Shown here: piece after piece, positions 14,766 through 46,114 of the stretch
Layout: every line of letters begins with the position of its first letter
How positions within the stretch are numbered: position 1 is the first letter of the stretch
Assembly: GCF_001006305.1 (NCBI RefSeq)
Contig: NZ_LBHJ01000004.1
Location: 62,001 to 126,000, forward strand
Direction of reading: 5' to 3'
Length of the DNA: 64,000 bases
DNA from: Silvibacterium bohemicum
GTDB taxonomy: Bacteria > Acidobacteriota > Terriglobia > Terriglobales > Acidobacteriaceae
Notes under the pieces: model-generated
The model's database searches: none
Told to the model about the DNA's origin: nothing
What the model saw: only the letters and a program-made list of their open reading frames with translations
Made by a program: the position numbers and the translations under genes

Positions 14766-14782
14766 TAGGCAATCTTTGCCCA
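14766..14782. repeat. 17-bp inverted repeat, flagellar operator candidate (copy 1)
   Basis: TAGGCA-ATCTT-TGCCCA lies just upstream of the flgF sigma54-type promoter. It matches three other intergenic copies at 29287, 38220 and 46098. Confidence 0.6.
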
Positions 14783-14958
14783 AAAAACAGGCCAGATTGC
14801 GGCAAAAACCAGGAGTTTGATGAGGGTTCAATGAGAATCGTTCAGAACCTGTCGAACGCTGTTCTAAGATCGTGCCGAGTCGCTCATCAAGAGGCAATCA
14901 TCTTCGGGGAGTGTGATGGCCTGCACCATCAAGCGTGATCGGCCTAAGCCCGGAGAGC

Positions 14959-15687
14959 TTAGCCGCGCCGATGCAGCTGCGGCCGGATGCTGTATTCGAA
15001 GGGGCAATCGATAGAAGATCGATCGGCGCGCTGATGTGCGGTGCGCACGATCCCCGACCATCGGACGGGATAGCCGGCGAGATGCATTTCGCAGAAGAGC
15101 TCCATCACGCAACGGGGCAGCGACCACTGCTTGGCGATCCTGAAGCCGGTGGCGACGCTATCGTCGGAAGGAGATTCCATCCAGTCCCATCCCAGGATAG
15201 ACGGCAGCAAGCCGATCCCATGAAGCAGGCCGGCCAAGTACGCTTCGTCGGGGTTAACGTCGGGCATCTCGTCTGCGACCAGCTTCGCATGCTGCGCAAT
15301 CTGTTTGGAGTGGGCCCAGGTTTCAGCAATGGCATGACCGCCACCATCGCGAGACACGGTCATTGCGGACACGGCCCCGAAGCAGGTCACCAGCCCCAGG
15401 TCCGAGATGCAATCTTCAATGCGTGTGGGACGGCCTTCAGCATTGCCGTATTCGCGTCCGGCCAGACGCAGTATCTGCACCGCAGCGCCCATATCTCCGA
15501 GCACTAATCGAGATATCTCGGCGAGATCGACGGACATCTCCTGCATCCTGATGTCGAGAAGCAGTAGCGTCTCCGGCAGGACAGGAACGTCAGGAAAATC
15601 GCAGGAGAAATCGACCTGCAATAGCTGGTGTTTTTCTTCAGGTGGCTTGCGCCCTACTTCAGTATGGAAAACGGAATTCTTGAGCAC
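14959..15687 (-). CDS. HDOD domain protein in the flagellar locus
   Basis: A 242-residue protein made essentially of one HDOD domain. Recognisable parts are the helices VLPETLLLLDIRMQEMSVDL and LVLGDMGAAVQILRLAG, and the YLAGLLHGIGLLPSILGW stretch with the HD-like histidine. HDOD proteins are regulatory and lack phosphodiesterase activity in known cases. GTG 15687 is chosen because AGGTGG lies 7 bases upstream and because the sigma28-type -10 element (15708-15715) overlaps the codons of the longer TTG-initiated frame. Its own promoter makes it a late flagellar gene. The exact role is unknown. Confidence 0.8.
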   Translation of the reverse strand: MLKNSVFHTEVGRKPPEEKHQLLQVDFSCDFPDVPVLPETLLLLDIRMQEMSVDLAEISRLVLGDMGAAVQILRLAGREYGNAEGRPTRIEDCISDLGLVTCFGAVSAMTVSRDGGGHAIAETWAHSKQIAQHAKLVADEMPDVNPDEAYLAGLLHGIGLLPSILGWDWMESPSDDSVATGFRIAKQWSLPRCVMELFCEMHLAGYPVRWSGIVRTAHQRADRSSIDCPFEYSIRPQLHRRG

Positions 15688-15707
15688 TGTGCCACCACCT
15701 GGCACAG

Positions 15708-15735
15708 TTATCGGCAATTTATTGCAATCCTTTTA
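15708..15735 (-). promoter_or_regulatory. Sigma28 (FliA) promoter of the HDOD gene
   Basis: On the minus strand TAAAA, a 15-base spacer and GCCGATAA give a perfect match to the FliA consensus. The -35 overlaps the stop codon of the preceding gene. The predicted start near 15702 falls immediately before the AGGTGG ribosome-binding site. Confidence 0.85.
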
Positions 15736-16641
15736 CCCTAAAGAGCCGACGCATTCATCAAGAATCACGGAATTCTTCACATACCGTACATCTGCAGCGT
15801 TTTTGAGCTGAAAAAGGAGATCGATTCGGCGGCTCTTTCCCGCCAGCCTTGCCCAAATGTAATTTCGGCAGTAAGCAAAACTGGCCTCTCGCGCCGCTAT
15901 CTCCGACGCATATCCTCCCAAAGTTCTTGCCATCTGAGTCGGAGTGCCCGGATCTTCGACAACCGCCTCTTCGCATCCCGAGGTTACGGCCAGATGGTCC
16001 ATCTGCTCGCCGAATTGCGAGGGAGTGATAAAGCAGGGTTCCGCGCGGCACCCGGTAATCTGCTCGAGCGACTGCAGGAAGCTATGATCGACACGATAAA
16101 CAAAACCCAAAACCAACCGCTTGGCTGCCGCCGCGTAATGCAGAGGAACTGCAGCATAGGTTTGCATCAAAGTTGTGGGGATCTCGGCTTCGATCGGCTC
16201 CGTCACGCGGTCACTTCCGCAAAAGGGATATCCCCACTGCGCGGCCCTGGCCGCGGCAATCTGCTTCTCATTCGCAATGCCCAGCCGAATCAGCGTGCCT
16301 TCCAGCTTTTCGCCGTTGCGCTCACTCTCCACAATCGCAAAGCGAAGCTGATCGTCCGTCAAATAATTCTTCGACAGCATGATGAGACCGATGGACAGCC
16401 GCGGGTCCCGCGGCATCTCCATTACCCGGCGCCGCGACAATGCGGAGATCCGGGTACGCGCCGATACAATGAAGCAATCAACGCCGCAATACCAGGAGTC
16501 GCCGATGGTGATGCCGATGCGGCTCTGGGGAACGCTCCGCATCAGCATCTTGTTATGACACGTGGGCAACCCGCATACCGCGCGCATGTTTTTCCATCCC
16601 CGGCTCATCGATGGCAGGAAAGATCCAAGCGACAATCTCAT
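15733..16641 (-). CDS. Zinc-ribbon-like plus MshEN/GspE-N-like protein
   Basis: A 302-residue protein of uncertain role at the end of the export/switch operon. Residues 23-56 hold two cysteine pairs (C23-x4-C28 and C52-x3-C56) that look like a zinc ribbon. From about residue 80 comes an MshEN-type pattern (LSIGLIMLSKNYLTDDQLRF, then LEGTLIRLGIANEKQIAAAR), a fold that binds c-di-GMP in type II secretion and pilus ATPases. No ATPase domain follows. ATG 16641 after AGAGGT is preferred to TTG 16659, which overlaps the fliN stop. A c-di-GMP effector acting on the switch is an inference. Confidence 0.65.
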   Translation of the reverse strand: MRLSLGSFLPSMSRGWKNMRAVCGLPTCHNKMLMRSVPQSRIGITIGDSWYCGVDCFIVSARTRISALSRRRVMEMPRDPRLSIGLIMLSKNYLTDDQLRFAIVESERNGEKLEGTLIRLGIANEKQIAAARAAQWGYPFCGSDRVTEPIEAEIPTTLMQTYAAVPLHYAAAAKRLVLGFVYRVDHSFLQSLEQITGCRAEPCFITPSQFGEQMDHLAVTSGCEEAVVEDPGTPTQMARTLGGYASEIAAREASFAYCRNYIWARLAGKSRRIDLLFQLKNAADVRYVKNSVILDECVGSLG

Positions 16642-16655
16642 CGGACTTACCTCTT

Positions 16656-17456
16656 TCAACGTGCGAAATGCGACGAAATGGGTTGGGTGATTTCGGTGAC
16701 GCGGAGACCATAATTGCCGTCGACGATGACGGCTTCTCCGCGCGCGATCAGCTTGCCATCCAACAACAGCTCCACAGGCTCGTCGACAAGACGATCCAGC
16801 TCGATGACCGCACCGCTCTCCAGCTCCAGCACCTCGCGAAGCGGCAACTGGCGTTGACCGAAGCGCAGAGACACATTCAGCTCCACATCCATCACCAGCT
16901 TGAGATTGGTGGGATCAATCAGAATCTGCTCGGACTCGGAAGCAGCCTTCGATTCCGATTGAGACGTAAGCTCGTTCAGAAGCTGGCCGTCGAAGTAGAG
17001 CAGCACGGGAATGGCGGCACTTCCCTTTTCGGAAGCTTCGAGAGGAACGACAAACATTCCCCCGAAAGCCAGGCCCTTCACCTTCTCGACCTTGAAGGTC
17101 AGCTCTCCATATTGATCGGAGAGTGCAGCCGACAATCCTGGCGTGGCGGACACGATCGCTTTCTGCAGTGCATCCGCATGGTCGTCGGTGTAAGCCTCCT
17201 CAGGGTGATCCAAGATCTTCGCACCGAGAAGAGCCACCTGCGGCTCGTAGGACTCGATGAAGCATTCGCCCTGGCGCGCTCCATCGACAGTCAAACGATA
17301 GTGGACCGGCTGTCCCTGACGAGTGGCAAGGTCGGGGCTGTCTAAAGTTTTGAGATGCCACTCCGACCCAACCAACTGAGTGAGCGAATCGGCAAAGGAT
17401 TCTGCGAAAGCCGCTGCAAATACATGCGCGGCATTTTTATTGCTCTGGTTATCCAC
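16656..17456 (-). CDS. fliN: Flagellar motor switch protein FliN, long form
   Basis: A 266-residue protein whose last 80 residues are a SpoA/FliN domain (LKLVMDVELNVSLRFGQRQL, LREVLELESGAVIELDRLVD, LLLDGKLIARGEAVIVDGNY). The N-terminal two thirds (residues about 10-170) form a globular extension, loosely like the CheC-like part of FliY, but no clear phosphatase motif is seen. FliN builds the lower C-ring with FliM and FliG. It is located 5 bases after fliM. A second, short FliN is encoded at 24863-25168. Confidence 0.88.
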   Translation of the reverse strand: MDNQSNKNAAHVFAAAFAESFADSLTQLVGSEWHLKTLDSPDLATRQGQPVHYRLTVDGARQGECFIESYEPQVALLGAKILDHPEEAYTDDHADALQKAIVSATPGLSAALSDQYGELTFKVEKVKGLAFGGMFVVPLEASEKGSAAIPVLLYFDGQLLNELTSQSESKAASESEQILIDPTNLKLVMDVELNVSLRFGQRQLPLREVLELESGAVIELDRLVDEPVELLLDGKLIARGEAVIVDGNYGLRVTEITQPISSHFAR

Positions 17457-17461
17457 GATGT

Positions 17462-18436
17462 CTATTCCCCTTCCCAGCTTGACCGTTGCGCCCTGCGGCC
17501 GAGTTGCGCCGCCTTCTGAGTGCCATTCCTGACTGGCACCGCCTCGAATACTTCTTCTCCTTTTACCGTCAACTTTCCAGGGCTACGAACCGGCGCACGC
17601 AGCTTCAAGACCGATCCGGGCTGCAGGGAGATCAGATCCTTTACCGCTACTTTGATATTGAGTAACTCAGCCGCCACTTCGAAGTCGCAATCGAGAATGC
17701 GATCACGCAGGCTGGGTGTGGGGAAAAAGCGAGCTCCGCGCTTCTTCTGCGGCTGCTCCATCTTGATCTGTTTGATCAAAATATTCAGGAACAGCGTTGG
17801 AAAAACCAGCTGAAGCGAACCGGTGACGCCTGCAATCTCTATCTCGAACTTCACGAGCGTGACTTTTTCGTTGGGCGGGCAGTATTGATGCAGCACCGAC
17901 GCCTTGATGCGGCGATTGGGAACGAGAGACATACTGGGCATGCGCCACGCATTCTCCGCCTGCCGCGCGATCAGCGTCGTCACATCGTGCATGATCTCTT
18001 CTTCGATCTCCGAGAGCTCGCGCGTCTCGTTGACCGGTCCGCCACCGTTGCCGCCCATGAGCAGATCGATGATGGGAAAAACCAGGTGGATGTCGCACTC
18101 AACGATCATGGTGCTCGGGACCGTGCTCAAAGAACAGGGTGCGATGTAACTAAGCGGTGGAATGCTGGAGATATGATCCTTGATCGGCAGCTGATCCAGC
18201 GCCTGGAACTTCACTTCCAATCCGGAGCCCAGATACACGTCGAGAGCGCTCGCGAAATGCCGCGCAAACGTCTCGTGGATCGCAGTCAGTGCGCGGGCGT
18301 TTTCATTGGACAATCGCCCCGCCGACCGGAAATTGCAGGGATAGACAGATCGCGGCTTGCCACCCGGCTTGCGCGAGTCCGCCTGGCGCGACGCTTTCAG
18401 CATCGAGTCAATCTGCTCCTGATCAAACATGCTCAC
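17462..18436 (-). CDS. fliM: Flagellar motor switch protein
   Basis: A 324-residue switch protein. The N-terminal FDQEQIDSMLKASRQ corresponds to the CheY-P-binding segment. The middle CheC-like domain (IVECDIHLVFPIIDLLMGGN) binds FliG, and the C-terminal SpoA domain (LLNIKVAVKDLISLQPGSVL) binds FliN. GTG 18436 lies 5 bases after GGAGG; ATG 18430 is the alternative. The start overlaps the end of fliA. Confidence 0.94.
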   Translation of the reverse strand: MSMFDQEQIDSMLKASRQADSRKPGGKPRSVYPCNFRSAGRLSNENARALTAIHETFARHFASALDVYLGSGLEVKFQALDQLPIKDHISSIPPLSYIAPCSLSTVPSTMIVECDIHLVFPIIDLLMGGNGGGPVNETRELSEIEEEIMHDVTTLIARQAENAWRMPSMSLVPNRRIKASVLHQYCPPNEKVTLVKFEIEIAGVTGSLQLVFPTLFLNILIKQIKMEQPQKKRGARFFPTPSLRDRILDCDFEVAAELLNIKVAVKDLISLQPGSVLKLRAPVRSPGKLTVKGEEVFEAVPVRNGTQKAAQLGRRAQRSSWEGE

Positions 18437-19220
18437 GATAGCCTCCTACTGCCGTTTCCGCCGGTATTGGCCGTGCTTTCAAATGCGCGAGTGATTCGCG
18501 CAGCTTCTTCATCGTCGCCTGGCGTATCTGCGATACCCGCGACAACGCCACGCCCACGACCTCCGCGATCTCCTTCATGGTGAGCTCTTCGCGGTAGTAG
18601 AGGGAGATGATCAGCTGTTCCCTCTCGGTGAGCTTCGAGATTGCCTCGGCGAGATGCGCCTTCATCTCACCCTGCAGGCAAAGATCGAATGGATCGGGGT
18701 CGTCGAGATTCGGCGCCGATTCGATCACGTCCAGTGCCTCGGCGCGATCATTGGACGCGACCAGCTGCTGGCCGGCCAGATGCAGCCCATCGAGCTGCTG
18801 GATGATCTTGCGCAGGTGATCGGTCTCGATGCCCATCTCCTTCGCGATCTCCGCCTCGGCAGGATGCCGCCCATACCGGGCCTCGAGCTTCGCCGTGGTG
18901 TCCGCAATTTCGCGTCCACGCCGGCGCAGCGAGCGCGATCCCCAATCCGCTTCGCGCAGGCTGTCCAGGATGGCGCCTCGAATGCGGAACTTCGCATAGG
19001 TCTTGAACTGGGCGTTCTTCGAGCTATCGAAGGTCCGGCTGGCCTCGAGTAATCCGATCACACCGGCATTCACCAGATCCTCCAGCTCCACATGCTGGGG
19101 AAGGCGCTCCCGGATGCGCGATGCAATGTAATAGACCTGTGAAAGCTCCTGCATCACCAGATCATTACCCTGGTCCACTTCTGCCAAGCTTGTTTTGTAT
19201 GCCACTTCGGCTGGCGTCAT
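18423..19220 (-). CDS. fliA: Flagellar RNA polymerase sigma factor sigma28
   Basis: A 265-residue FliA/WhiG-type sigma factor. Region 2 has HVELEDLVNAGVIGLLEASR and FKTYAKFRIRGAILDSLREA. Region 3 has RRGREIADTTAKLEARYGRH, and region 4 ends in the helix-turn-helix MKEIAEVVGVALSRVSQIRQ. It reads the GCCGATAR promoters of this window and is held by FlgM. The start has GAGGTG upstream. It lies 37 bases after flhA, in the place where many genomes carry flhF and flhG first. Confidence 0.96.
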   Translation of the reverse strand: MTPAEVAYKTSLAEVDQGNDLVMQELSQVYYIASRIRERLPQHVELEDLVNAGVIGLLEASRTFDSSKNAQFKTYAKFRIRGAILDSLREADWGSRSLRRRGREIADTTAKLEARYGRHPAEAEIAKEMGIETDHLRKIIQQLDGLHLAGQQLVASNDRAEALDVIESAPNLDDPDPFDLCLQGEMKAHLAEAISKLTEREQLIISLYYREELTMKEIAEVVGVALSRVSQIRQATMKKLRESLAHLKARPIPAETAVGGYREHV

Positions 19221-19257
19221 TTGTTCACCTCATTCAACGTGTAAATATCAAGTAGCT

Positions 19258-27344: not shown

Positions 27345-29144
27345 TTATGCCTGGATATCCAACCGATAGCCATCGCCCGTTGCTGCCATTGCCACCGGAC
27401 TCAAGCTGCTGTCGGCTTCCATGGAAGCCTCAACACTCTCAACCTGCCCAGACCGCGCATATGCTCTGTGGTCCTGCTGCGACTGCGACGACTGTCCCGA
27501 ATTGCCGGAGAACGATGAACCCTGGTTATTGACCTCGATCACCGTGTGAAGCCCATATTCATTTCCAAGCTTCGTCTGCACCGAGGAGATATGAGCAGAG
27601 ATAGCCTGGCTCAAATCGCCGTGATCCAGAGAAATCTGAGCCAGCATCTGCTGTTGCGAAACCGAGGTGCGAATCGAGATATCGCCGAATTCGTTCGAGT
27701 GCATTCCCACACGAATCTCGGACTCGTTTATGGTCTGAATGAGTTTTGCGGTATTCACTCCGGAGGTTGCCGCGGCCTCGCCGCTCTCTACTTGAGCCGG
27801 CACCGTCTCCGCTTTTGTCTCGCTCTGGCGAGGAGCGATGTCCGCGCCATCGGTCGCACGGCTCGCGGACGCCGTCTCGTGAGAGGCCACGTGCGCCTGA
27901 ATTGTCTGAGCCTGCACCTGCATCGCCGCGCCGCCATCTGCAACCTTTACCGCCGGCAACGCCGGATCGGAAGCTCCGGATTGCGAATGCGGCGTGGGCT
28001 GCCCGTTGTTCTGGGCGCTTTGCGATGAGGCATCGGCTGTACCGCTGACCGCGTCGCCTGAAGGCTTCTTGCCCAGATCCGCAACGCTGGTGACATCGGG
28101 ATTCTTGGAGGCGGAGTCAGAAGACAGCTTCTGCACCGATTTATCCATCGCCTGGCCGGCATCGCTGTTACCGGCGAGACCGGTGGTTGCCGCCAGGTTG
28201 ATCGGCAAGGTAAAGGTCTGGCCCGCGAGCTGCGTTGCAGCATTCGCCCCATCCTGCTGCGCGACACTTGCTTGTGCGCTCGCATTCGCGCTAGTCGCTG
28301 CAGATGTCTGTCCATCGAGAGTCGCATCGGGAGAAGATGCCGAGGGCTTCGCTTGCGGTACGGCATGTTCCGCGGGGCCCGCTTCCACTTGAGGCGTAAC
28401 CGCTTGCTGCGGCACATTGCGCATCAAGGAGGCGAGGCGTGCGTCGAGGGTTTCGGTGGCGGACAATGACGACCCGTTCGCGGCCGTTCCGCCAGAAACA
28501 GCGCCGCCGCTGGCCTGTTGGCCGCTCTGTTGCGAGTTGGCCACACCGTTGGGCAGATTCCATGGAAGGGATACGGCTTTATCAGTGGGAAGAATCGGCG
28601 AGGCCACATTGGCGCCCGCATTTGTAACTGCCGCAGATACTTGTGTCTTTTCCTGCTTGGCCGGCCCGCCGCTTCCTGCATTCGCAACAGAGTGCGCCTT
28701 CGCGCCTGCGAGCGCAGAGCTGTCTTCTGTAGCGTCCTGTCCGGAGGCGTTCGCAACGACCGCCTGCAGGATGAGGTTGGAGGGAATGTTCTGCGTCGAT
28801 GTCAATTGCGCCGAACCTGTAGTGGCCGCTGAACCTGTCGCTGTCGACAAAGTCGACACGCCGGTTTCGTCGGACGCTGCACCCGAAGTCTGCCCATTCT
28901 CAATCACGGATGAGGCATCCCCATCTTGAGTGCCTGACTTCGCCTCTGCCGCGGCGTTCTTCTGATCGAATGCGGCGAGCGTCTTCGCATCGCCTTTGAT
29001 CAAGCCGTTTCCGGGAGCCGCCACTTCGGCGACGCTGGCGAGAAGCGCCTGAAAGGCGCCTCCCGCAGAATGGGCCGCCGCCGCCGATTGCGGTGCTGCC
29101 GTACTGGAGTTCGTCGATGACGCTGCGATTCGCACGCCTGACAT
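27345..29144 (-). CDS. fliK: Flagellar hook-length control protein
   Basis: A 599-residue exported protein. About 470 residues of Ala/Ser/Gln-rich, disordered-looking ruler precede the C-terminal Flg_hook domain (NESEIRVGMHSNEFGDISIR, MLAQISLDHGDLSQAISAHI). That domain triggers the FlhB switch. ATG 29144 (MSGVRIAASS) is preferred to a frame reaching 29270, because a sigma54-like element and an inverted repeat occupy that leader. It lies downstream of the fliJ terminator, so it starts its own hook operon with flgD and flgE. Confidence 0.88.
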   Translation of the reverse strand: MSGVRIAASSTNSSTAAPQSAAAAHSAGGAFQALLASVAEVAAPGNGLIKGDAKTLAAFDQKNAAAEAKSGTQDGDASSVIENGQTSGAASDETGVSTLSTATGSAATTGSAQLTSTQNIPSNLILQAVVANASGQDATEDSSALAGAKAHSVANAGSGGPAKQEKTQVSAAVTNAGANVASPILPTDKAVSLPWNLPNGVANSQQSGQQASGGAVSGGTAANGSSLSATETLDARLASLMRNVPQQAVTPQVEAGPAEHAVPQAKPSASSPDATLDGQTSAATSANASAQASVAQQDGANAATQLAGQTFTLPINLAATTGLAGNSDAGQAMDKSVQKLSSDSASKNPDVTSVADLGKKPSGDAVSGTADASSQSAQNNGQPTPHSQSGASDPALPAVKVADGGAAMQVQAQTIQAHVASHETASASRATDGADIAPRQSETKAETVPAQVESGEAAATSGVNTAKLIQTINESEIRVGMHSNEFGDISIRTSVSQQQMLAQISLDHGDLSQAISAHISSVQTKLGNEYGLHTVIEVNNQGSSFSGNSGQSSQSQQDHRAYARSGQVESVEASMEADSSLSPVAMAATGDGYRLDIQA

Positions 29145-29169
29145 ATTGCACGTTGCGCGCCAGCATCGG

Positions 29170-29185
29170 ACCAATCTGCGTGCCA
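29170..29185 (-). promoter_or_regulatory. Possible sigma54 promoter of fliK-flgD-flgE
   Basis: TGGCAC-N5-TTGG has a perfect -24 half and spacing, but GG in place of the nearly invariant GC at -12. It lies 25 bases before the fliK ATG. Confidence 0.4.
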
Positions 29186-29286
29186 TCTGCGGCCACAGAA
29201 TCCACTGATTCGAAAGCACTTCTATGCTTCCGATTTTTCGGCCATGCAAAGCAAATCGAGCAATCGGCAACCGTTGCCGAATGCAC

Positions 29287-29303
29287 TGGGCAATGTCTGC
29301 CTA
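29287..29303. repeat. 17-bp inverted repeat, flagellar operator candidate (copy 2)
   Basis: TGGGCA-ATGTC-TGCCTA lies about 110 bases upstream of the possible fliK promoter, a typical enhancer distance. Its flanks (ACT...GT) are shared with the copy at 46098. Confidence 0.6.
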
Positions 29304-35605: not shown

Positions 35606-36982
35606 TTATGCGTATCTCCTTGGTGGAAGGCCGTATTCGCGAATTTTGTTGCGCAGCGTGCGCAGGCTGATGCCCAACATCTCAGCTGCGTGGGTGCGAT
35701 TTCCGTCGGTGAGCGCTAAGGTGTTTTCCAGGTGCTGGCGTTCCACCTGGCGGATGGGAATACCTGCAACCGCAGCGGATGGCGACATCGGTGCGGGCGG
35801 TGCGAGCTGCGGCCGGGCTGCCCCTTGAAACTCCATGTCGAAACAGCCGGCGTCGATCTCATGCGTTCCACTGAGCGTGAGAACACGCCGCATGAAGTTA
35901 CCCAGCTCGCGAACATTTCCGGGCCAGCTATGCGACTGCAATCGCTCCAGAAATTCTTGATGAAGATGCGGAATCTGGGTCTGCTGATGCGCGGCGAACT
36001 TAACGGCAAAGTGCCGTGCGAGTATCGGAATATCTTCACGGCGCTCGCGCAGCGGAGGCAGCGTGAGAGGAATCACATTCAGTCTGTAGTAGAGATCGGC
36101 GCGAAACTGTCCGCGCTCGACCATCGCCCCCAGTGAAACGTTGGTGGTGGCAATGACCCGGATGTCGACCTTGACCGACCGGCCTTCGCCGAGCCTCTCG
36201 AATTCGCGCTCCTGCAAAGCACGTAACAGCTTCGGTTGCAGATGAAGCGGCATTTCACCGATCTCATCGAGCAGAATCGTGCCGCCATCCGCCAGCTCAA
36301 ACTTGCCGGGCTTGGCCGCGACCGCGCCGGTAAAGGCGCCACGCCCGTGACCGAACAACTCGCTCTCCAGAAGAGATTCGGGGACCGCGGCGCAATTCAC
36401 GGCAACGAATGGCTTGCGGCTGCGATCGCTGGAGTCATGAATGAAGCGCGCCAGCAGCTCTTTGCCGGTGCCGCTCTCCGCTTCGACGAGAACATCCGCG
36501 CCGGTGCTGGCGGCGGCGCGCGCACGCTGAATCGCACGCAGCAACGCGGGTGCGCGTCCAACGATGTCGCCGGCCGGAGCCACTTCTTCCTCCGCGGGCA
36601 TCTCTTTCGCGCGATGCATCACCTGCGCTGCGGTAGCCTGCAAGCGATCGAAGGAGATAGGCTTGGTCAGATAATCGAGCGCTCCATCGCGCATGGCGCT
36701 GACTGCATCCGGCACCGAGCCGTAGGCGGTCAACAAAATGACCGCTGTTCCCGGAGAAGACTGGCGCGCGGACCGCATCACTTCCATGCCTGTGCCATCA
36801 GGCATGCGAATGTCAGTCACCACCAGGTCGAATTCCTTGCCCTCGAAATTACGGACAGCCTCGCGAACACAGGACGCTGTTTCGACCCGCCATCCGTGGC
36901 GCAAGAAGTTCGCGCGCAGAGCGGTGCGAATGCCTGGTTCGTCGTCTACCACCATGACTGAAGACGGTGCGTCATTGGTCAT
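35606..36982 (-). CDS. Sigma54-dependent flagellar response regulator (FlrC/FlgR/NtrC type)
   Basis: A 458-residue regulator with three parts. The receiver has an acidic pocket VVDDEP and phosphoacceptor D57 in VVTDIRMPDG. The AAA+ domain carries the sigma54-contacting GAFTGA loop and Walker B GGTILLDEIGEM. The C-terminal Fis-type helix-turn-helix is GNRTHAAEMLGISLRTLRNK. The Walker A reads AESGTGKE, with Ala for the usual first Gly. ATG 36982 overlaps the kinase stop (ATGA). Its operon position suggests that it activates RpoN-dependent flagellar genes. Confidence 0.92.
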   Translation of the reverse strand: MTNDAPSSVMVVDDEPGIRTALRANFLRHGWRVETASCVREAVRNFEGKEFDLVVTDIRMPDGTGMEVMRSARQSSPGTAVILLTAYGSVPDAVSAMRDGALDYLTKPISFDRLQATAAQVMHRAKEMPAEEEVAPAGDIVGRAPALLRAIQRARAAASTGADVLVEAESGTGKELLARFIHDSSDRSRKPFVAVNCAAVPESLLESELFGHGRGAFTGAVAAKPGKFELADGGTILLDEIGEMPLHLQPKLLRALQEREFERLGEGRSVKVDIRVIATTNVSLGAMVERGQFRADLYYRLNVIPLTLPPLRERREDIPILARHFAVKFAAHQQTQIPHLHQEFLERLQSHSWPGNVRELGNFMRRVLTLSGTHEIDAGCFDMEFQGAARPQLAPPAPMSPSAAVAGIPIRQVERQHLENTLALTDGNRTHAAEMLGISLRTLRNKIREYGLPPRRYA

Positions 36983-38229
36983 AAGGTTGGAAACTCCAAT
37001 TGAAAAGTACTTCCGCAGTTCACACGGCTGGAGACTCGTATCTCTCCGCCGTGTTGCATCATGAGCCGTTTGCAAACTGCCAGCCCCAATCCAGGTGTAT
37101 CGCCGCTCGCGCTGAAACCGGCATCGAAAAGGTGCTGCATCAGCGAAGCTGGAATTCCGCAGCCCGTATCCGTGACCTCGACCAGCGCGCGAGATGTTCC
37201 CAATGGCCGAATCGAAACGATGATCTTTCCGCCGCAAGGCGTGTGGCGAATCGCGTTGCAGATGAGATTGAGAATGATCTGGCGCAGGCCCTCTTCGTTA
37301 CCCTCGATGGTCAGCCTATCGTCTTCGCTTATAAAGGAGAGCGATACGCCAGCCTGCTCGGCGATGGGCCGTACGAACTCCACGCCGGTCTGCATGCAGG
37401 AGATCAGATTCAGCGGCGTGAGTTGGGGATTGGTTCCGCAGTGAATGCTAAGGACGTTGCTCACTGTCCCCGAGAGCATGCGAATGCCGGCGCGAAGATG
37501 AGAGACCCACTGCGAAGTCTGCCCCGGATCCTCAGCGATGAGGCCGGCAAACAATTCCATACTCGCTAACGGATTTCTAATTTCATGCGCCAGGATCGTC
37601 GAGATTTCCGCCAAAGCCATGGCGCTCCGCGCGGCTTCGCGCTCCTGCTCGGCAAGTTTGTTCGCGGTAATGTCGCGGAGAATCCAGATGCTCTGCAGCG
37701 GCGTTCTTCCGCTGCCCACTTCCTGGCTTGCGGGTGCGCAGGACAATTTTTGATTACCGATGGCCAGCCAGCGCTTGCCCGTGCTCGACGACAGGCACAG
37801 CTCGTTGTCGAGATGATCGTCCGATCTCGCCAGCAGAGACTCGAAGTTGATCTTGCTGATTGCAGAGAGATCGCGTAGGCTCTTCACTTCTGCGTCGCCA
37901 AGTTCTAATAATCTGCGCCCTTCCGGATTGATCATGACAATGATCTCGGCGGTATCGAGCACCAGCACGCCACAGGGCATGGAATCGATCATCTGCTGCA
38001 AGGCCGCGCGCATGCGGTCGTTTTCCGCGAGGCTGCGGGTAAGAGCAGCGTTACGCTCCGCCAGCTCGAATCCCAGGTGCGCAACCTCGCGCTGCAAGTC
38101 GCGATAAGACGCTTCGAGCAGAGAAGACGCAGAGATGAACTCCGAGAAGGCATCCGCCAACAGCCGCGGACTGCGCAGGGAGTCTGGGCCTACGTTCTTT
38201 ATTGGAGCAACATGAGAACCGGGCAGCAT
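36979..38229 (-). CDS. Soluble sensor histidine kinase, partner of the flagellar regulator (FlrB-like)
   Basis: A 416-residue kinase without membrane segments. It has a short coiled coil (residues about 40-70), a PAS domain (MPCGVLVLDTAEIIVMINPE), a HisKA box with H215 in ILAHEIRNPLASMEL, and a complete HATPase (N-box ILNLICNAIRHTP, G-boxes DTGCGIP and GDTPGLGLAV). Such cytoplasmic FlrB/FleS/FlgS-like kinases sense assembly of the export apparatus. The ATG at 38229 is only 4 bases after the predicted RpoN start, so a start farther downstream or a near-leaderless message is possible. Confidence 0.9.
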   Translation of the reverse strand: MLPGSHVAPIKNVGPDSLRSPRLLADAFSEFISASSLLEASYRDLQREVAHLGFELAERNAALTRSLAENDRMRAALQQMIDSMPCGVLVLDTAEIIVMINPEGRRLLELGDAEVKSLRDLSAISKINFESLLARSDDHLDNELCLSSSTGKRWLAIGNQKLSCAPASQEVGSGRTPLQSIWILRDITANKLAEQEREAARSAMALAEISTILAHEIRNPLASMELFAGLIAEDPGQTSQWVSHLRAGIRMLSGTVSNVLSIHCGTNPQLTPLNLISCMQTGVEFVRPIAEQAGVSLSFISEDDRLTIEGNEEGLRQIILNLICNAIRHTPCGGKIIVSIRPLGTSRALVEVTDTGCGIPASLMQHLFDAGFSASGDTPGLGLAVCKRLMMQHGGEIRVSSRVNCGSTFQLEFPTL

Positions 38230-38236
38230 TTGCCTA
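38220..38236. repeat. 17-bp inverted repeat, flagellar operator candidate (copy 3)
   Basis: CGGGCA-GCATT-TGCCTA overlaps the kinase start codon and lies just downstream of the RpoN-type promoter. It matches the TRGGCA-N5-TGCCYA consensus at 11 of 12 arm positions. Confidence 0.5.
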
Positions 38237-38243: not shown

Positions 38244-38259
38244 TGCACGATGAGTGCCA
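38244..38259 (-). promoter_or_regulatory. Sigma54 promoter of the kinase-regulator-basal body operon
   Basis: TGGCAC-N5-GTGCA on the minus strand has exact GG-N10-GC spacing and the same form as the site before flgF. The predicted start near 38233 is very close to the kinase ATG. Confidence 0.65.
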
Positions 38260-38292: not shown

Positions 38293-39516
38293 CTAAAGAA
38301 TGATGTGTTCGGGCTTGATTTCGTGACCGGAACCGACCAGGATGGTCGCCCGCTCGATGGCGTTGCGCAGTTCGCGTACGTTTCCCGGCCAGCGATGTTG
38401 CGCCAGCACGTGCAACGCTTCGCGGCTGAGTGAGACTCCGGGATGAAATCTCACGACGAACGCCGTCGCCAGCTCGTCCAGATCGCTGAGGCGATCGCGG
38501 AGCGGCGGCAGGTGGATTGGAAAAACCGCCAGGCGGTAATAGAGATCTTCACGAAACTGCTGCTGACTGATGAGCTTTTTAAGATCGGCGTTGGTGGCCG
38601 CTACGACGCGCACGTCGACCTTGAGATTGTCGTTGCCGCCCAGGCGCTGGACTTCGCCCTGCTCCAGGAATCTCAGGATCTTGCTCTGCAGCGAGAGCGG
38701 CATGTCCCCGATTTCATCCAGAAAGAGCGTGCCGCCGTGAGCGGCATGAATGCGTCCAATACGGGATTGAACGGCGCCGGTGAAAGAACCTTTGGTATAG
38801 CCGAAAAGCTCGGCTTCGAGCAGCGTCTCGGGAATCGCGGAGCAATTCACGACGATGAACGGCTGCTTGCGGCGCGGGCTGATGAGATGGATTTCCTGAG
38901 CCACGAGATCTTTGCCGGTTCCGCTCTCTCCGGTCACAAGAACAGTGGTGTCGCGAACAGCGACCATCCGGGTCACGATAGACACGCGCTGCATCGGCTC
39001 GGACTCGCCGATCATGCCGCGCAGCTTGAATCTGCCGTCCTGCAGATGGTGGCGCGAGCTCTCGTGATCGACCACAGTGGGTAAGACAGTATTCGTGTGG
39101 ACTGCGCCGTTGCGATTAACGACGTCCACAAGTTTTGTCGATATAGGAGTCGGCGAGGCGCTTCCGACCAGCAGCTGGCCGGTGTGCGAATTCAACATCA
39201 AAATCTGAGTATTGGGAAAGCGATCCCTGACGATGGCGTTGAACTCGTTGGGCTCCAGATCCGGCAGCAGAGGATCGAGCAACAGAACTCCGTCGTCGGT
39301 GCCGTGCTTGTGAAGGACCTCGAGCGCGCCTGAGCCGCTGGTCGCCTGGATCACGTTCCAGCGCGGCGGCCCCAGCTTTTCCTGGAGCTCCTGCTGAAGC
39401 TTGGGATTCGGGCTCACCACGAATACATCGATGGGAACCCGATCTTCAAAGCGGTCGAATTGAGTGATAGGACTGCTCATAGAGTTATCGACTGCATAAT
39501 TGTGCTGAAAACTCAT
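38293..39516 (-). CDS. Sigma54 activator with degenerate receiver and no DNA-binding domain
   Basis: A 407-residue protein. Residues about 30-125 resemble a receiver or FleQ-type domain with an Asp at D81 (VLLLDPLLPD) but without the acidic pocket. A full AAA+ domain follows (Walker A GESGTGKD, GSFTGA loop, Walker B GGTLFLDEIGDM, R-finger region FREDLYYRLAVFPIHLPPLR). It stops right after GHEIKPEHIIL, where a Fis-type helix-turn-helix would be expected. No such sequence exists in any frame of the 63 bases before the kinase gene. It may act from solution, as Helicobacter FlgR does, or regulate the other activator. Confidence 0.88.
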   Translation of the reverse strand: MSFQHNYAVDNSMSSPITQFDRFEDRVPIDVFVVSPNPKLQQELQEKLGPPRWNVIQATSGSGALEVLHKHGTDDGVLLLDPLLPDLEPNEFNAIVRDRFPNTQILMLNSHTGQLLVGSASPTPISTKLVDVVNRNGAVHTNTVLPTVVDHESSRHHLQDGRFKLRGMIGESEPMQRVSIVTRMVAVRDTTVLVTGESGTGKDLVAQEIHLISPRRKQPFIVVNCSAIPETLLEAELFGYTKGSFTGAVQSRIGRIHAAHGGTLFLDEIGDMPLSLQSKILRFLEQGEVQRLGGNDNLKVDVRVVAATNADLKKLISQQQFREDLYYRLAVFPIHLPPLRDRLSDLDELATAFVVRFHPGVSLSREALHVLAQHRWPGNVRELRNAIERATILVGSGHEIKPEHIIL

Positions 39517-39553
39517 TAGAACCTAGAACCCAAATCTCTGCACCCTGGAAAAG

Positions 39554-40237: not shown

Positions 40238-40268
40238 GCTTGCAGCCTGTCCGTTCTCTGGCTTCTCG

Positions 40269-41039
40269 CTAGGCTTCACGAAGTTCGTACCCCACACCAC
40301 GTATGGTGTGCGTCAGCTTGGACTCTCCCGGAAGATCGACCTTGTCACGTACGTATTTCATGTAAACGTCGACAATATTGGTCGAGGGATCGGACGGCAT
40401 GTTCCAGACCTCTTCGAAGAGAGTGGCCCGCGACACCGGCCGGCCGGAATTCCGCATCATGTATTCGAGGATGGCGAATTCGCGGGGGGTCAGATCGATG
40501 CGGCGGCCATTCCGCTCCACGCGGCGCTCCTGGCGATGAAGAACCAGGTCACCCACTTTGGAGCAGTTGGGAATCAAGCCGGAGTTGCGGCGCATGAGCG
40601 CCTGCACCCGGGCCAGAAGCTCGACCAGCGAAAACGGCTTGGTGAGGCAATCGTCAGCGCCGCTGTGGAAGGCGGAAACTTTGTCCTCCACCCGGCAGCG
40701 CGCCGTCAGCACCAGCATCGGCAGTCGAGGTTGGGCAGGGCGGACTCGTTCGAGCAGGCTGATGCCGTCCAGCTTGGGCAGGTTGAGATCCAGAATCAGC
40801 AGGTCGTACCGGTGGTCCTGCAGGCTGCTCAGGGCCGCTTCCCCATCGTGAATCAATTCCACGGTGAAGCCTGCCATCTGAAGTTCCCGGCAAAGAAAGC
40901 CGGCCAGCGAGACATCATCCTCGACGATCAGGATGCGGCGGCCGGCTACTTGATGGAATTCAGAAGCGCGTCTCATATTCGAGATGCCCTGGGCGGGTGG
41001 ATTAGAGATACTTCTGGCAGAAGGCGTACAGAGTTCCAT
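40269..41039 (-). CDS. OmpR/PhoB-family response regulator
   Basis: A regulator of about 256 residues. The receiver begins RRILIVEDDVSLAGFL, with phosphoacceptor D84 in LLILDLNLPKLDG and the conserved Thr/Lys region (LVLTARCRVEDKV, CLTKPFS). The C-terminal winged helix (IDLTPREFAILEYMMRNSGR, VDVYMKYVRDKVDLP, IRGVGYELRE) binds DNA. ATG 41039 or ATG 40976 (MRRASEFHQ) are both possible starts. It leads a two-gene unit with the degenerate kinase and runs toward the flagellar regulators. Confidence 0.88.
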   Translation of the reverse strand: MELCTPSARSISNPPAQGISNMRRASEFHQVAGRRILIVEDDVSLAGFLCRELQMAGFTVELIHDGEAALSSLQDHRYDLLILDLNLPKLDGISLLERVRPAQPRLPMLVLTARCRVEDKVSAFHSGADDCLTKPFSLVELLARVQALMRRNSGLIPNCSKVGDLVLHRQERRVERNGRRIDLTPREFAILEYMMRNSGRPVSRATLFEEVWNMPSDPSTNIVDVYMKYVRDKVDLPGESKLTHTIRGVGYELREA

Positions 41040-41082
41040 GTGTAATTCCGTTCCCAAAGTTTTAATTCGTTATCTGAACTAC

Positions 41083-41096
41083 AGTACTTTAGTACT
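41083..41096. repeat. Palindromic repeat upstream of the OmpR-type regulator
   Basis: Two palindromic AGTACT hexamers separated by TT lie 44-57 bases upstream of the regulator start. They read both as direct and as inverted repeats. Confidence 0.4.
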
Positions 41097-41447: not shown

Positions 41448-41475
41448 TTACAGCTTTTCCCGGAAATGCCGATAG
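41448..41475 (+). promoter_or_regulatory. Sigma28 (FliA) promoter of the PilZ gene
   Basis: TTACA, a 15-base spacer and GCCGATAG, with predicted start near 41482 and a leader of about 59 bases. Confidence 0.7.
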
Positions 41476-41540
41476 TAAAGGCTCGAACTACGCTCTAATA
41501 AATCAACGACACCCTACCCATGGGCAGGCGATAGCCAACT

Positions 41541-41876: not shown

Positions 41877-41894
41877 ACGCAATTTACTTCCGTT

Positions 41895-42851
41895 TTACTT
41901 CTTCGCAATTGGCATAGCAGCCGGGCTTGATTTTGCGGTCTGGGTATTCTGACTCACCTGCGTGTTCGGGCTCGCCTTGGGAGCCTGAGCGCTTACGCTC
42001 GTTTGCGCAGCCGGGCCCGCTTTCGAAGCCGGCGCATTCTGGCTTACCGGGGCCGCGGGAGCCGCTGCGGCGCTCTTCGTCTGCTGCTGCTGGATTTTGA
42101 GAAGCTCGGGCGAGGCTACTTCGCTTCCATCGATCACCTGATACTGAACGATCAGCGAGATTCGCCGATTGGACGGGTTCTGCGGCTGCAGGGGCAGACG
42201 CAGACGCTGGTCGGCGAAGCCGCGCACCTGCGATATCTGGTTTGGCCGGACTCCTTGAGCCTGCATCAGCCGCCGCGCTTCATTCGCCCGGTCCGAGGAC
42301 AGGTCCCAGTTGTCGTAGGTGTGAGCGACCGAGTAGGGCGTCGAATCCGTGTGCCCCTCGATCGAGATCTTGTTCGGCAACTTGCCCAGCTCCCCGGATA
42401 AGACCTGGAGGATTTCCGTCAACGCCGGCGTGGGCTTCGCGCTTCCCAGCTGGAAGAAGGTTCCCTTTGCCGATTCCATCAGCTCGATGCGCAGGCCTTC
42501 CTGGGTGATGGTGATTTCGATCTGGTTTTTCAGCTTGTCGAGCGGATCGAGGCGATGAATGGACTGCAGAAGCTGCTCTTTGAGCTTGTGCATGTCTTCT
42601 TTCTTCAGCTTGGTGAAGTCGCCAGGACCGTTTTTATCCGTCCCCGCCTGCTTGGCGAGGCCGTGAGGGTCCCGGAAATACCCGCCCACCGCTTCCTGCA
42701 CCGGCTTGCTGGTGTTCATTAGCCAGAGGACGATAAACAATGCCATCATCGCGGTGACAAAATCCGCGTAGGCCACCTTCCACGCGCCGCCGTGATGGCC
42801 GCCGTGGTTGTGCTTCTTCTTGATGACGATGATCTCGGGTGTCTCTGACAT
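41895..42851 (-). CDS. motB: Flagellar stator protein MotB (first set)
   Basis: A 318-residue stator subunit. One membrane segment, KVAYADFVTAMMALFIVLWL, holds the ion-binding Asp. It is followed by a plug-like stretch and an OmpA-type peptidoglycan-binding domain (ISIEGHTDSTPYS, LSSDRANEARRLM). The tail is about 70 residues of Ala/Ser/Pro/Gln repeats. The membrane segment is of the proton-type (E. coli-like). It lies 24 bases after motA. Confidence 0.93.
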   Translation of the reverse strand: MSETPEIIVIKKKHNHGGHHGGAWKVAYADFVTAMMALFIVLWLMNTSKPVQEAVGGYFRDPHGLAKQAGTDKNGPGDFTKLKKEDMHKLKEQLLQSIHRLDPLDKLKNQIEITITQEGLRIELMESAKGTFFQLGSAKPTPALTEILQVLSGELGKLPNKISIEGHTDSTPYSVAHTYDNWDLSSDRANEARRLMQAQGVRPNQISQVRGFADQRLRLPLQPQNPSNRRISLIVQYQVIDGSEVASPELLKIQQQQTKSAAAAPAAPVSQNAPASKAGPAAQTSVSAQAPKASPNTQVSQNTQTAKSSPAAMPIAKK

Positions 42852-42875
42852 GGTCTAGCGCCTTTTCGACCGCGT

Positions 42876-43754
42876 TTATGCCGCTACCGCTGGGGTGGGT
42901 TCATCCTTCTGACGGCACGCTTTTTCTACTTCCTGGAAGTTGGGACGAACGTGTTCCGGAACCGCCCGCCGTCCCATTTCGACGGCCAGGGTCGGGGACA
43001 TGCCCTTGATGAAAGCCAACATCACCACCCGCAAAACGTGGTAGTAGCCATGCTCGTCTTCAATCAGCTTGCTGAGGTTTGACGCTAAAGGTCCGATCAT
43101 TCCGTAGCACAGCAGGATGCCGAGAAACGTTCCTACCAGGGCCGCCGCGACCTTGTGGCCAATCTCTTCCGGAGGGCCGCCGAGCGAGCCCATGGTCACT
43201 ACCACACCGAGAACGGCAGCGACGATTCCGAGACCGGGCAATGCGTCGGCCATCGATGTCAGCGCCGATGCGGGGAGCGTCGCGCCCTTGTGATGAACCT
43301 CCATGTCCAGATCCATCATCTGGTCGACGTCGAAGGAACTTGCGCCGCCGGTAATAGCCATGCGCATGGTGTCGCAGACAAAGTCCCGCGCATGATGATT
43401 CTTGAGGAAGGCCGGAAATTTGGCAAAGAGCTGGCTCTTCTCCGGCTCCTCGATGTCGCTCTCAATCGCGGTCAAGCCTTCTTTGCGAGCTTTATTGAAG
43501 AGATGAAACATCATCCTCAGCGAGTCGAGATAACTCTGCTTGGAAAACTTCGATCCACTAATGACGCCGCTCAGACTCGCGACGATCTTCTTCAGCACGT
43601 ACATTGGGTTCGCGGCCAGCATCGTACCGATGGCTGCACCACCGATAATGACCAGTTCCGACGGCTGGATAAGCACCGCGATCGGTCCCTTCTCCATCAG
43701 GAAGCCGCCGATCACTGCGCCAAATACGATGAGAATTCCAATGATTGAAAACAT
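42876..43754 (-). CDS. motA: Flagellar stator protein MotA (first set)
   Basis: A 292-residue membrane protein with four segments. It starts MFSIIGILIVFGAVIGGFLM and contains GIVAAVLGVVVTMGSLGGPP and LVGTFLGILLCYGMIGPLAS. The cytoplasmic loop carries charged residues that meet FliG. Its length matches long E. coli-type MotA. GAGG lies upstream of the ATG, and transcription should start from the sigma28-type site at 43850. Confidence 0.94.
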   Translation of the reverse strand: MFSIIGILIVFGAVIGGFLMEKGPIAVLIQPSELVIIGGAAIGTMLAANPMYVLKKIVASLSGVISGSKFSKQSYLDSLRMMFHLFNKARKEGLTAIESDIEEPEKSQLFAKFPAFLKNHHARDFVCDTMRMAITGGASSFDVDQMMDLDMEVHHKGATLPASALTSMADALPGLGIVAAVLGVVVTMGSLGGPPEEIGHKVAAALVGTFLGILLCYGMIGPLASNLSKLIEDEHGYYHVLRVVMLAFIKGMSPTLAVEMGRRAVPEHVRPNFQEVEKACRQKDEPTPAVAA

Positions 43755-44069
43755 GAGCCTCGTCCCCTGGCAAGGTACGCCTGAAAGGTAATCCCCCCTT
43801 CGGTGGAGCTCTTAACTAGCGGCTGTCCTGGTGTTGGGTGGTCCACCAACTATCGGCACGGAGGGTACTGATTTCTAGGCCGATTACTCATCTGCCAACA
43901 ACCGAAAGGTGGGAGATAGCGAGGAGCTAAATAGTCCGCGGCATGATGGCCCGGAGGTGGTCAATGCTTCGTATCGAGGCACGATTTCAATCGTGTCACT
44001 TCGGACTCTGGAACGACCGGACTCGAGCATGATCGAGAGTCGACGCCCGTAAGCCGTCATGAGACCGGT
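43755..44069. other. Intergenic region between motA and the GGDEF-EAL gene
   Basis: No gene is seen. It holds the motA sigma28-type promoter, a partly palindromic GTTGG...CCAAC segment at the predicted transcript start, and a perfect hairpin CACGATT-TC-AATCGTG at 43980-43995 that lacks a T tract. Confidence 0.5.
43850..43877 (-). promoter_or_regulatory. Sigma28 (FliA) promoter of motA-motB
   Basis: On the minus strand: TAGAA, a 15-base spacer, GCCGATAG. The leader would be about 89 bases. Confidence 0.8.
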
Positions 44070-46001
44070 TTAAGCTGTGCTCGAAGCAGGCTTGATCGAT
44101 ACCGCTCGCAGCTTCTCTACAACTTGATCGACCGCAACCGGCTTGCTGAAGTAGTAGCCCTGGATCACATAGCAGTGCTGCGCTCGCAAAAACGAGAGCT
44201 GCGCTTCGTTCTCGACGCCCTCGGCGAGCACTTCGAGGTTCAGCGCTTTCGCCATGCGGATGATCGCGGTGGTGATGGCGGCGTCGTCGGGATTGACTGC
44301 AACATCTCTGACGAACGAGCGGTCAATCTTGAGCCGGTTGACCTGAAACTGGCGCAGATAGCCGAGACTCGAATAGCCGGTGCCGAAATCGTCGATGGCC
44401 AGCTTCACGCCCATCTCGCGCAGGTCCTGCAGGATCGAGAACATCACGTCGGCGTTGGTGAGCAGCAGGCTTTCGGTCAGCTCCAACTCCAGGTATTGCG
44501 GGTCGAGGCCGGTGTCGTGCAGAACCTCGCGGATGAGCTCTCGAAATCCCTGCTGGCGAAACTGCACGGCCGAGACGTTGACCGCAATCGGCACGGCCAG
44601 AAGTCCGGCGTCCTGCCATTTCTTCGCCTGCGCGCAGGCAGTCCGCAGCACCCATTCTCCGATGGGCACGATCGAGCCGCTGTTCTCGGCCACCTCGATA
44701 AATGTTGACGGTGGCACCAGGCCCAGCTGCGGATGCTGCCAGCGCAGAAGCGCCTCGAGGCCAGTAATTGTTCCGGTGCTGATATTGACCTGTGGCTGGT
44801 AGACCAGGAAGAGTTCGTCGCGGTCGAGCGCCAGGCGCAGGCCGTTTTCCAGAGTTAACCGCTCCAGGATTTCGACGTTCATCGCCTCGGTAAAGAACCG
44901 GAATTTGTTCGGCCCATCTTCCTTCGCGGAGTACATGGCCACGTCAGCGTTTTTCAGCAGAACCTCGCTGTCCAGGCCGTTTTCCGGGAAGATGCTGATG
45001 CCGATCGTGCACGAAATATTGAGCGAGTGGCCCAGGGCGGCAAATTCTTCGACGCTCAGCGCGTCGATAATTCTCTGCGCGATCTCGCCAACTTCGTCAG
45101 GGTCGTCGATGTGGGGCAGGACGATGGCAAATTCATCTCCGCCGATTCGCGCCACGATGCTCTGCTCGCCTGCGCCAATTTTGATCCTCTGCGCGATCTC
45201 CTGGAGGAGCAGGTCGCCAAAGGCGTGTCCCAGCGAGTCGTTGATGATCTTGAAGCGGTCGAGCTCCAGTAGTAGCAGCGCGGCCTTGCCCTTCCTGCGG
45301 CGAGCGTCGGCCAGGGCGTTTGCGAGCCAATCGCGGAAGAGCGTCCGATTGGGTAATCCGGTAAGCGTGTCGTAGTAGGCGAGAAACTGAATTCTCTGCT
45401 CGTCTCCCTTGCGCGCGGTAATGTCTTCGCCCGTGCCCTCGTAGCGGAGAATCTTGCCGCGCTCATTGAAGACCGCGCGAATATTCAGCAGAATCCACTT
45501 CGTTGCGCCGTCGCGGCAGCGAATCTCTGTCTCGATACCGCACTCCACGCCATTGCGCGAAATCGCCTCTCTCCACTCGCTCAGCTTGCAGGGAGAGACC
45601 AGGAGCTGCTGGCCGATATCGGAGACCTCGGCCATCATCTGCTCGGGCGACTCGTATCCGTAGATGCTCGCCATTCGGCGATTGATGGTGAGAGGCTGCC
45701 CGCGGCGGCTTATCTGAAATATCCCTACCAGCGCCTCGTCAAAGAGGGATCGATACCTCTCTTCCGACGCCCGGAGCTCTTCGTTGGTTTTTTCGTAATG
45801 AAGAAATAGCCGGTTTACGGAGTTCAGCGCTTCAAAGCGCCACTCTTCCGCGGAACGGCTGCGCCGGCGTTCGTGAAAAAAACGCGGACGAGCAGTTTCG
45901 GGAGACAGATTTCCCGCTTGCTTCTCGCCATTCGCAGGATCGGTATCGGGTTCTGAGCCTCGACCGAAAGAAGGAGCTTTTGCGAGGCCGCTGACTTGCA
46001 T
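44070..46001 (-). CDS. PAS-GGDEF-EAL protein (c-di-GMP turnover)
   Basis: A 643-residue cytoplasmic protein. The PAS domain spans about 85-200, and the GGDEF domain about 205-370 with an intact motif in RIGGDEFAIVLPH. The EAL domain spans about 385-630 with LEALLRWQHPQLG, the Asp pair of DDFGTGYSSLGYL and LKIDRSFVRDV. Both active-site motifs look complete, so it may make or break c-di-GMP depending on state. A sigma28-type site abuts the ATG, which makes it a probable late flagellar gene feeding the PilZ and motor genes. Confidence 0.92.
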   Translation of the reverse strand: MQVSGLAKAPSFGRGSEPDTDPANGEKQAGNLSPETARPRFFHERRRSRSAEEWRFEALNSVNRLFLHYEKTNEELRASEERYRSLFDEALVGIFQISRRGQPLTINRRMASIYGYESPEQMMAEVSDIGQQLLVSPCKLSEWREAISRNGVECGIETEIRCRDGATKWILLNIRAVFNERGKILRYEGTGEDITARKGDEQRIQFLAYYDTLTGLPNRTLFRDWLANALADARRRKGKAALLLLELDRFKIINDSLGHAFGDLLLQEIAQRIKIGAGEQSIVARIGGDEFAIVLPHIDDPDEVGEIAQRIIDALSVEEFAALGHSLNISCTIGISIFPENGLDSEVLLKNADVAMYSAKEDGPNKFRFFTEAMNVEILERLTLENGLRLALDRDELFLVYQPQVNISTGTITGLEALLRWQHPQLGLVPPSTFIEVAENSGSIVPIGEWVLRTACAQAKKWQDAGLLAVPIAVNVSAVQFRQQGFRELIREVLHDTGLDPQYLELELTESLLLTNADVMFSILQDLREMGVKLAIDDFGTGYSSLGYLRQFQVNRLKIDRSFVRDVAVNPDDAAITTAIIRMAKALNLEVLAEGVENEAQLSFLRAQHCYVIQGYYFSKPVAVDQVVEKLRAVSIKPASSTA

Positions 46002-46007
46002 GGTTCC

Positions 46008-46035
46008 TCATCGGCTTTTTCTCAAAAGAATTTCA
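46008..46035 (-). promoter_or_regulatory. Sigma28-like promoter abutting the GGDEF-EAL start
   Basis: TGAAA, a 15-base spacer and GCCGATGA match the other sites except for the seventh -10 base. The predicted transcript start coincides with the ATG, implying a leaderless message. Confidence 0.55.
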
Positions 46036-46097
46036 ACGGCACGAAGGCCCCCGGGGCCGAAGGCGGGTGCGGCCACGTAGGCATCTTTCGTCCTTAC

Positions 46098-46114
46098 TGG
46101 GCAACTGTTGCCTA
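46098..46114. repeat. 17-bp inverted repeat, flagellar operator candidate (copy 4)
   Basis: TGGGCA-ACTGT-TGCCTA is embedded in a longer perfect hairpin (CTTACT...AGTAAG flanks with one G:T). It lies about 100 bases before the GGDEF-EAL start. Confidence 0.6.

Follow-up and report, generated by a model that had tools for sequence, protein, structure and literature searches.

A GGCA-N5-TGCC inverted repeat at flagellar gene starts of Silvibacterium bohemicum as the probable operator of an FlrC/FlbD-type regulator

A flagellar gene cluster in a 64,000-nucleotide stretch of the Silvibacterium bohemicum genome (Acidobacteriota; contig NZ_LBHJ01000004.1, positions 62,001 to 126,000, hereafter the window) carries several copies of the 17-base-pair (bp) inverted repeat TRGGCA-N5-TGCCYA. 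The sites themselves, their conservation, their spacing and their link to a regulator gene indicate that they are very probably the binding sites of an FlrC/FlbD-type response regulator encoded at 35606-36982 (Table 1), which would act as enhancer-binding protein at distant sites and would turn flrBC down at the start of flrB. The first-pass annotation of this DNA had proposed the site of a flagellar regulator, for instance this NtrC-type protein, and the data presented here support that assignment.

The four copies listed in that annotation are all present, starting at 14766, 29287, 38220 and 46098. Its pattern is matched exactly by the first, second and fourth and with one mismatch by the copy at 38220, and copies 2 and 4 indeed have the outer bases ACT...GT in common. 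A further copy, TCGGCAACCGTTGCCGA at 29264-29280, had been overlooked; its arms are perfectly palindromic, and it pairs with copy 2 at a distance of 23 bp. The four window matches to the 17-bp pattern compare with a mean of 0.40 in shuffled sequence, where four were reached in one of 100 shuffles. The whole-genome scan proposed in the first-pass annotation found the exact pattern at three places in 6,459,122 bases, all three inside the flagellar window. The looser pattern TNGGCAN5TGCCNA has 11 exact places, five of them in the window, which makes up 1% of the genome; these are copies 1, 2 and 4, the overlooked copy and a place within a coding frame at 54465-54481, likewise absent from the first-pass annotation. 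With one mismatch allowed, 196 places were counted genome-wide versus 142 for a reversed control. A misread sigma54 promoter was rejected as explanation of the repeat: by eye, GG-N10-GC cannot be fitted into it, and the window has sigma54-like elements apart from it.

The recurrence of the sites in orthologous leaders, named in the first-pass annotation as a check, was analyzed in the stretches around orthologues of the regulator gene, which at E<=1e-120 occur in 18 of the 150 family genomes (that of the window among them), complemented by the loci of the regulator's nearest named relatives, on a Granulicella tundricola plasmid (70.6%) and in Bryocella elongata (65%), which point to a host within the Acidobacteriaceae. 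Outside the window, GGCA-N5-TGCC is present in 23 of 44 flagellar leaders, namely 9/21 for flrB, 11/16 for fliK and 3/7 for flgF. Markov-resampled leaders gave a mean of 0.44 with a site and a maximum of 3 in 500 rounds, and 380-bp windows elsewhere in the same loci contained the core in 16 of 1449 cases. This count leaves aside the fragment JASHTZ and FlgF matches of <=45% identity; it is slightly low, because the flrB windows used overlooked the sites of G043 and G084 (relatives are named by our genome handles), two artefactual misses that do appear among the sites in an unbiased repeat count. The latter count, over all 4-base arms with spacers of 2-12, used 49 leaders (46 without the window) and kept the FlgF matches of <=45% identity. 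GGCA-N5-TGCC came first with 21/46 leaders, followed by GCAA-N3-TTGC with nine, which is nested in it, and among 6-base arms TAGGCA-N5-TGCCTA led with 8/46. The flgF site of G028a lies far upstream and may be due to chance. A deltaproteobacterial stretch contained copies with N4-N6 spacers in no clear pattern. The Granulicella tundricola cluster is situated on plasmid pACIX901 (L140, NC_015057.1 202838-244184), and the regulator orthologue G043:C8:7633-8649 (L099) has an internal TGA in the assembly, due to decay or assembly error.

A second line of evidence links the sites to the regulator gene. Tandem pairs of the form GGCAN5TGCC-N5-16-GGCAN5TGCC were searched in all 150 genomes and found in ten, eight of the 18 genomes with the regulator versus two of the 132 without it (Fisher 3.3e-7); the reversed control pattern was found in eight genomes, one with the regulator. 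G041 counts among the eight via pairs outside its fliK leader, and without it the figure is 7/18. The two exceptions are G026, in which a 61% regulator match over residues 134-458 stays just below the cut-off, and G081, in which the pair lies inside a long frame. Seven of the 13 tandem places are fliK leaders (G000, G028, G038, G043, G071, G084 and G100); the others are found at an orphan gene in G026, at G000:C13, at another G028 place, ahead of a frame of 203 residues, at G041:C13 (gene not identified), and inside long frames at G041:C119 and in G081. The fliK leaders of G028a, G038, G071 and G084 also show an opposite-strand sigma28-like promoter just past the tandem sites and directed back across them towards fliJ, which recurs with one mismatch in G143 and could drive an antisense RNA.

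The protein proposed to bind these sites combines a receiver, in the translation of which the customary phosphorylation residues (an acidic pair, Asp, Thr and Lys) can be seen by eye, with a recognition region that reads RTxRN(K/R) in all but one of 22 orthologue rows, the exception being the match of G093, which ends early. With the NCBIfam FlbD model NF050807 it is the best of 20 matches in the genome (376.8 bits versus 345.4 for the next), a score far under the 750-bit cut-off for FlbD equivalogs. The FlrA-like protein encoded nearby stops 0-25 residues beyond the AAA+ lid in every one of the 19 rows compared (the window and 18 orthologues; rows of <42% identity were left out, and the entry for JASHTZ represents a match to its FlrC) and lacks the C-terminal helix-turn-helix (HTH) of FlrA and FleQ, and is therefore unlikely to read the sites; its motif is GSFTGA in the window and GAFTGA in most relatives. 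Another regulator of the cluster, for example the OmpR-type response regulator at 40269-41057, might bind the repeats instead of FlrC, and the majority of the fetched clusters contain this gene as well. Sites of OmpR-type proteins usually consist of direct repeats, which counts against such a binder. Moreover, the core of the sites is that of FlbD, an FlrC-like protein, as given in excerpts of PMC3333781, and an OmpR-type binder is thus highly improbable.

The geometry of the sites suggests two modes of use. Promoters were taken as consensus matches with unmapped starts, and distances run from the start of the site to the start of the -24 element. Of the 12 fliK leaders with a site, the window included, eight have a scored promoter, and in these it is preceded by the nearer site at a distance of 118-133 bp. 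In the window, the candidate at 29147-29162 has one site 118 bp and the other 141 bp away; by eye, a second, weaker candidate exists at 29170-29185. In the leaders of the orphan genes described below the nearer site is found about 97-136 bp upstream, some of the promoter matches being weak. The distant sites at fliK and other genes, about 97-145 bp upstream of sigma54-like promoters, hence look like enhancers, whereas promoter-touching sites would rather suit repression. The flgF site precedes the -24 element by 23 bp in the window, 24 bp in Granulicella tundricola and 145 bp in G045a. The flrB site follows the start of the -24 element by 22-24 bp in the window, Bryocella, G028, G030, G038 and G100, and by eye also in G084; it is located 19 bp upstream of -24 in G093, G127 and G147.

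In the window, the flrB start codon (ATG at 38229) falls inside the spacer of copy 3 and the predicted leader counts about four bases. Since the site spans the predicted +1 and start codon with equal spacing in several genera, it suggests autorepression of flrB. It might be possible that constraints of the protein sequence or of translation start maintain this palindrome and that it is no operator, given the position of the ATG and a downstream reading frame that by eye is alike in relatives; this appears improbable, however, because the left arm precedes the ATG and is kept as well, the palindrome recurs at other genes, and in G093, G127 and G147 it is found upstream of the promoter. Alternatively, FlrC bound downstream of the promoter could activate flrB as well. 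Desulfovibrio vulgaris is reported to have a small number of sites 40-70 bp past promoters, most of them for DVU1063 (PMC4641369, cited from excerpts), a precedent for such an arrangement; the window flrB site over the predicted +1 is too close for it, and activation from there seems rather unlikely compared with the preferred autorepression.

Copy 4 had been assigned to the GGDEF-EAL gene in the first-pass annotation, which is probably wrong. That gene has a sigma28-like promoter of its own, and on the other side of the repeat a sigma54-like promoter precedes a divergent orphan gene (46283-46771) of an often site-bearing family, for which copy 4 is the likelier enhancer. Similar proteins with an MSVAGI start and SGNLSAAQ repeats are encoded in 14 of the 150 genomes, this one included; the family members compared (the window gene and L225-L230, L232, L236 and L238) start with MS(V/I)xGI and several have a His run. 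From 17 places, 11 leaders in addition to the window were used (L231, L234, L235 and L237, all four for lack of a clear start, and L240 were left out), and six of them contain GGCA-N5-TGCC within 330 bp; the next non-nested repeat occurs in two. Five of the six site-bearing leaders are in genomes with the regulator, G026 being counted, and the sixth is that of G063; the left-out L235 has a site at -357. No site was found at the second orphan copy of this genome (L239) and at one in G071 (L228). The search of the orphan protein against Pfam and NCBIfam returned no confident family name; we guess at a flagellum-linked secreted or structural role. The tandem pair at G000:C13:595359-595395 (found in L142), outside the window, lies upstream of another orphan, the 259-residue P0004, which has no relatives beyond itself in the 150 genomes; it resembles the SGNLSAAQ proteins by eye only and is absent from the matches of the search with the window's orphan protein. 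Its region (G000:C13:594411-595395; L155:9409-10400) contains a weak sigma54-like element.

Several observations speak against this explanation or limit it. The bare core GGCARNNNYTGCC is unselective alone, with 67 matches per genome versus 58 for the reversed control; therefore, the case rests on context and conservation, and a genome-wide regulon could not be derived from the core. In 14 of 14 stretches read around other core matches, the central match lies within an open frame 110 or more codons long, frames that say little on DNA of such kind. No exact site is present in 21 of the 44 leaders (among them flrB: G010, G028b, G041, G045a, G045b, G049, G105, G123, G143 and Granulicella; fliK: Bryocella, G045a, G045b, G049 and G147; flgF: G010, G030, G038 and G123), and none was found in the Nitrospinia locus L008, which encodes RTLRNK together with flagellar genes. 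The general AtoC (433.5 bits) and NtrC (408.1) models outscore the FlbD model (376.6) for the regulator, and the site at flgF is nearer to its promoter than an enhancer usually would be. In G063 an orphan gene carries a site, yet none of the regulator matches read in this genome has RTxRN. Chance repeats, as the genome-wide core count taken by itself might indicate, are nevertheless a barely credible explanation in view of the enrichment in leaders of independent genera and the fixed spacings.

The first-pass annotation knew of no described site with this sequence. In fact, its core is that of the Caulobacter crescentus FlbD ftr sites, CCCGGCAxxxxxTGCCGGG, which are bound by an NtrC-type flagellar regulator, and the Desulfovibrio vulgaris DVU1063 motif, GGCAxxxxTGCC, is close (excerpts of PMC3333781). 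As for FlbD, the window sites are found at sigma54-like flagellar promoters, here the consensus matches at flgF, flrB and fliK. According to the excerpted PMC3930126, FlbD is an activator of middle and late genes and, at ftr4, a repressor of fliF, a use for activation and repression that resembles the two modes proposed here. Sites of this type, and their use in both directions, have thus been described before. The flanks differ, being T-R/Y-A here without the outer CCC/GGG of FlbD, and the regulator has an ordinary receiver and an adjacent kinase gene, in contrast to the atypical FlbD receiver described in the available part of PMC3333781. DVU1063 shares the GGCA/TGCC arms and a flagellar sigma54 regulon; in the accessible text (PMC3333781, PMC4641369) its spacer is printed as four bases, versus five here, and its receiver is described as atypical. 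The adjoining kinase and regulator genes of the window are reminiscent of FlrBC of Vibrio and FleSR of Pseudomonas, kinase-regulator pairs whose place in a sigma54 cascade is below an activator of the FlrA/FleQ type (PMC3930126, excerpts). The recognition helix differs from that of FleR, with GISLRTLRNKI here versus GISPRTLRYKL in the Pseudomonas FleR-like locus L176, the identity of which was taken from its neighbour. FlgR of Helicobacter pylori is, like the FlrA-like protein, a flagellar sigma54 activator without DNA-binding domain (same excerpts); unlike FlgR, the HTH-less protein here is upstream of a DNA-binding FlrC-like regulator. The system hence differs from the known ones in its flanks, its ordinary receiver, its HTH-less FlrA-like partner and the orphan family, and literature searches on flagellar control in Acidobacteria in an open-licence library listed no description of such a site.

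Table 1. Repeat copies, sigma factor-like promoters and genes of the window
Feature	Coordinates	Strand	Remarks
Copy 1, flgF leader	14766-14782		exact; about -49 to -33, with 6 bp between its end and the -24 element downstream
Sigma54-like promoter of flgF, TGGCACGCCCCGTGCA	14744-14759	-	consensus match, score 11; adjoins copy 1
Copy 2, fliK leader, distal member of tandem pair	29287-29303		exact
Proximal member of tandem pair, TCGGCA-N5-TGCCGA	29264-29280		perfect palindrome
Sigma54-like promoter candidate of fliK	29147-29162	-	consensus match, score 10
FlrC/FlbD-like response regulator, proposed binder	35606-36982	-	receiver, GAFTGA and Fis-type HTH in translation
flrB-like kinase gene	36979-38229	-	PAS, HisKA, HATPase_c
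Copy 3, flrB start	38220-38236		one mismatch; spans predicted +1 (about -3 to +14)
Sigma54-like promoter of flrB	38244-38259	-	consensus match, score 10
FlrA-like enhancer-binding protein, no HTH domain	38293-39516	-	Sigma54_activat and AAA lid only
Sigma28-like promoter of GGDEF-EAL gene (44070-46001)	46010-46035	-	one mismatch; 9 bp before gene
Copy 4	46098-46114		exact; 107 bp from sigma54-like element, about -133 to -117 of orphan gene
Sigma54-like promoter of orphan gene, TGGAAGGCGAATTGCA	46205-46220	+	score 10
Orphan gene, SGNLSAAQ-type repeats	46283-46771	+	start from conserved MSVAGI and AGGAG before ATG 46283
Looser copy	54465-54481		inside OmpA-family gene 53933-54793 (-)

Family tests on part of the genes of the window matched flagellin, FliD, FliS, FlgK, FlgM, FlgI, FlgH, FlgG, FlgF, FliM, sigma28, FlhA, FliO, FlgE, FlgD, FliI, the kinase, the FlrA-like protein and MotAB, with FliJ just below the family cut-off; flgB, flgC, fliF, fliG, fliP and flhB were named by gene order as annotated in Granulicella. 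No family matched the frame at 27345-29270 in these tests, hence the fliK label of the first-pass annotation, also used here, rests solely on its place between fliJ and flgD. The window furthermore contains two motAB stator sets, at 41895-43754 (-) and 47017-48650 (+). The HDOD gene at 14959-15717 (-) has a sigma28-like promoter without mismatch at its start (15690-15760, -), and the OmpA-family gene with the loose site inside is preceded by a good sigma54-like promoter at 54844-54859.

On the basis of these sequence features the following mode of action can be proposed. The HTH-less FlrA-like activator would open the flrBC promoter, and the adjacent kinase FlrB would activate FlrC, a dimer of which would read GGCA-N5-TGCC via its Fis-type HTH. 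Active FlrC might then assemble on single sites or on tandem pairs 22-25 bp apart, about 100-145 bp upstream of sigma54 promoters, and start a further wave of flagellar transcription that comprises the fliK operon and the orphan gene at 46283. At flrB, its binding would most likely lower the flrBC promoter once enough regulator has been made. We tentatively extend this scheme to a single operator code used in two opposite modes in Acidobacteriota. Distant sites would serve as enhancers for the second flagellar wave and the SGNLSAAQ-repeat proteins, which are maybe exported by the flagellum or built into it; the promoter-spanning operator, with the flrB start codon in its spacer and a very short leader, would allow FlrC to close a promoter opened by a non-DNA-binding activator, giving a self-limiting two-tier switch. 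This wider reading is possible and no stronger than that.

Collectively, as far as can be judged from sequence comparisons, the repeat is a genuine operator that belongs to an established type and has a putative new family in its regulon. The finding extends the DNA code of FlbD-type regulators to one of the major phyla of soil, the Acidobacteriota, and provides a searchable regulon signature with an uncharacterised protein family as likely members. It also yields a concrete prediction, negative feedback at flrBC.

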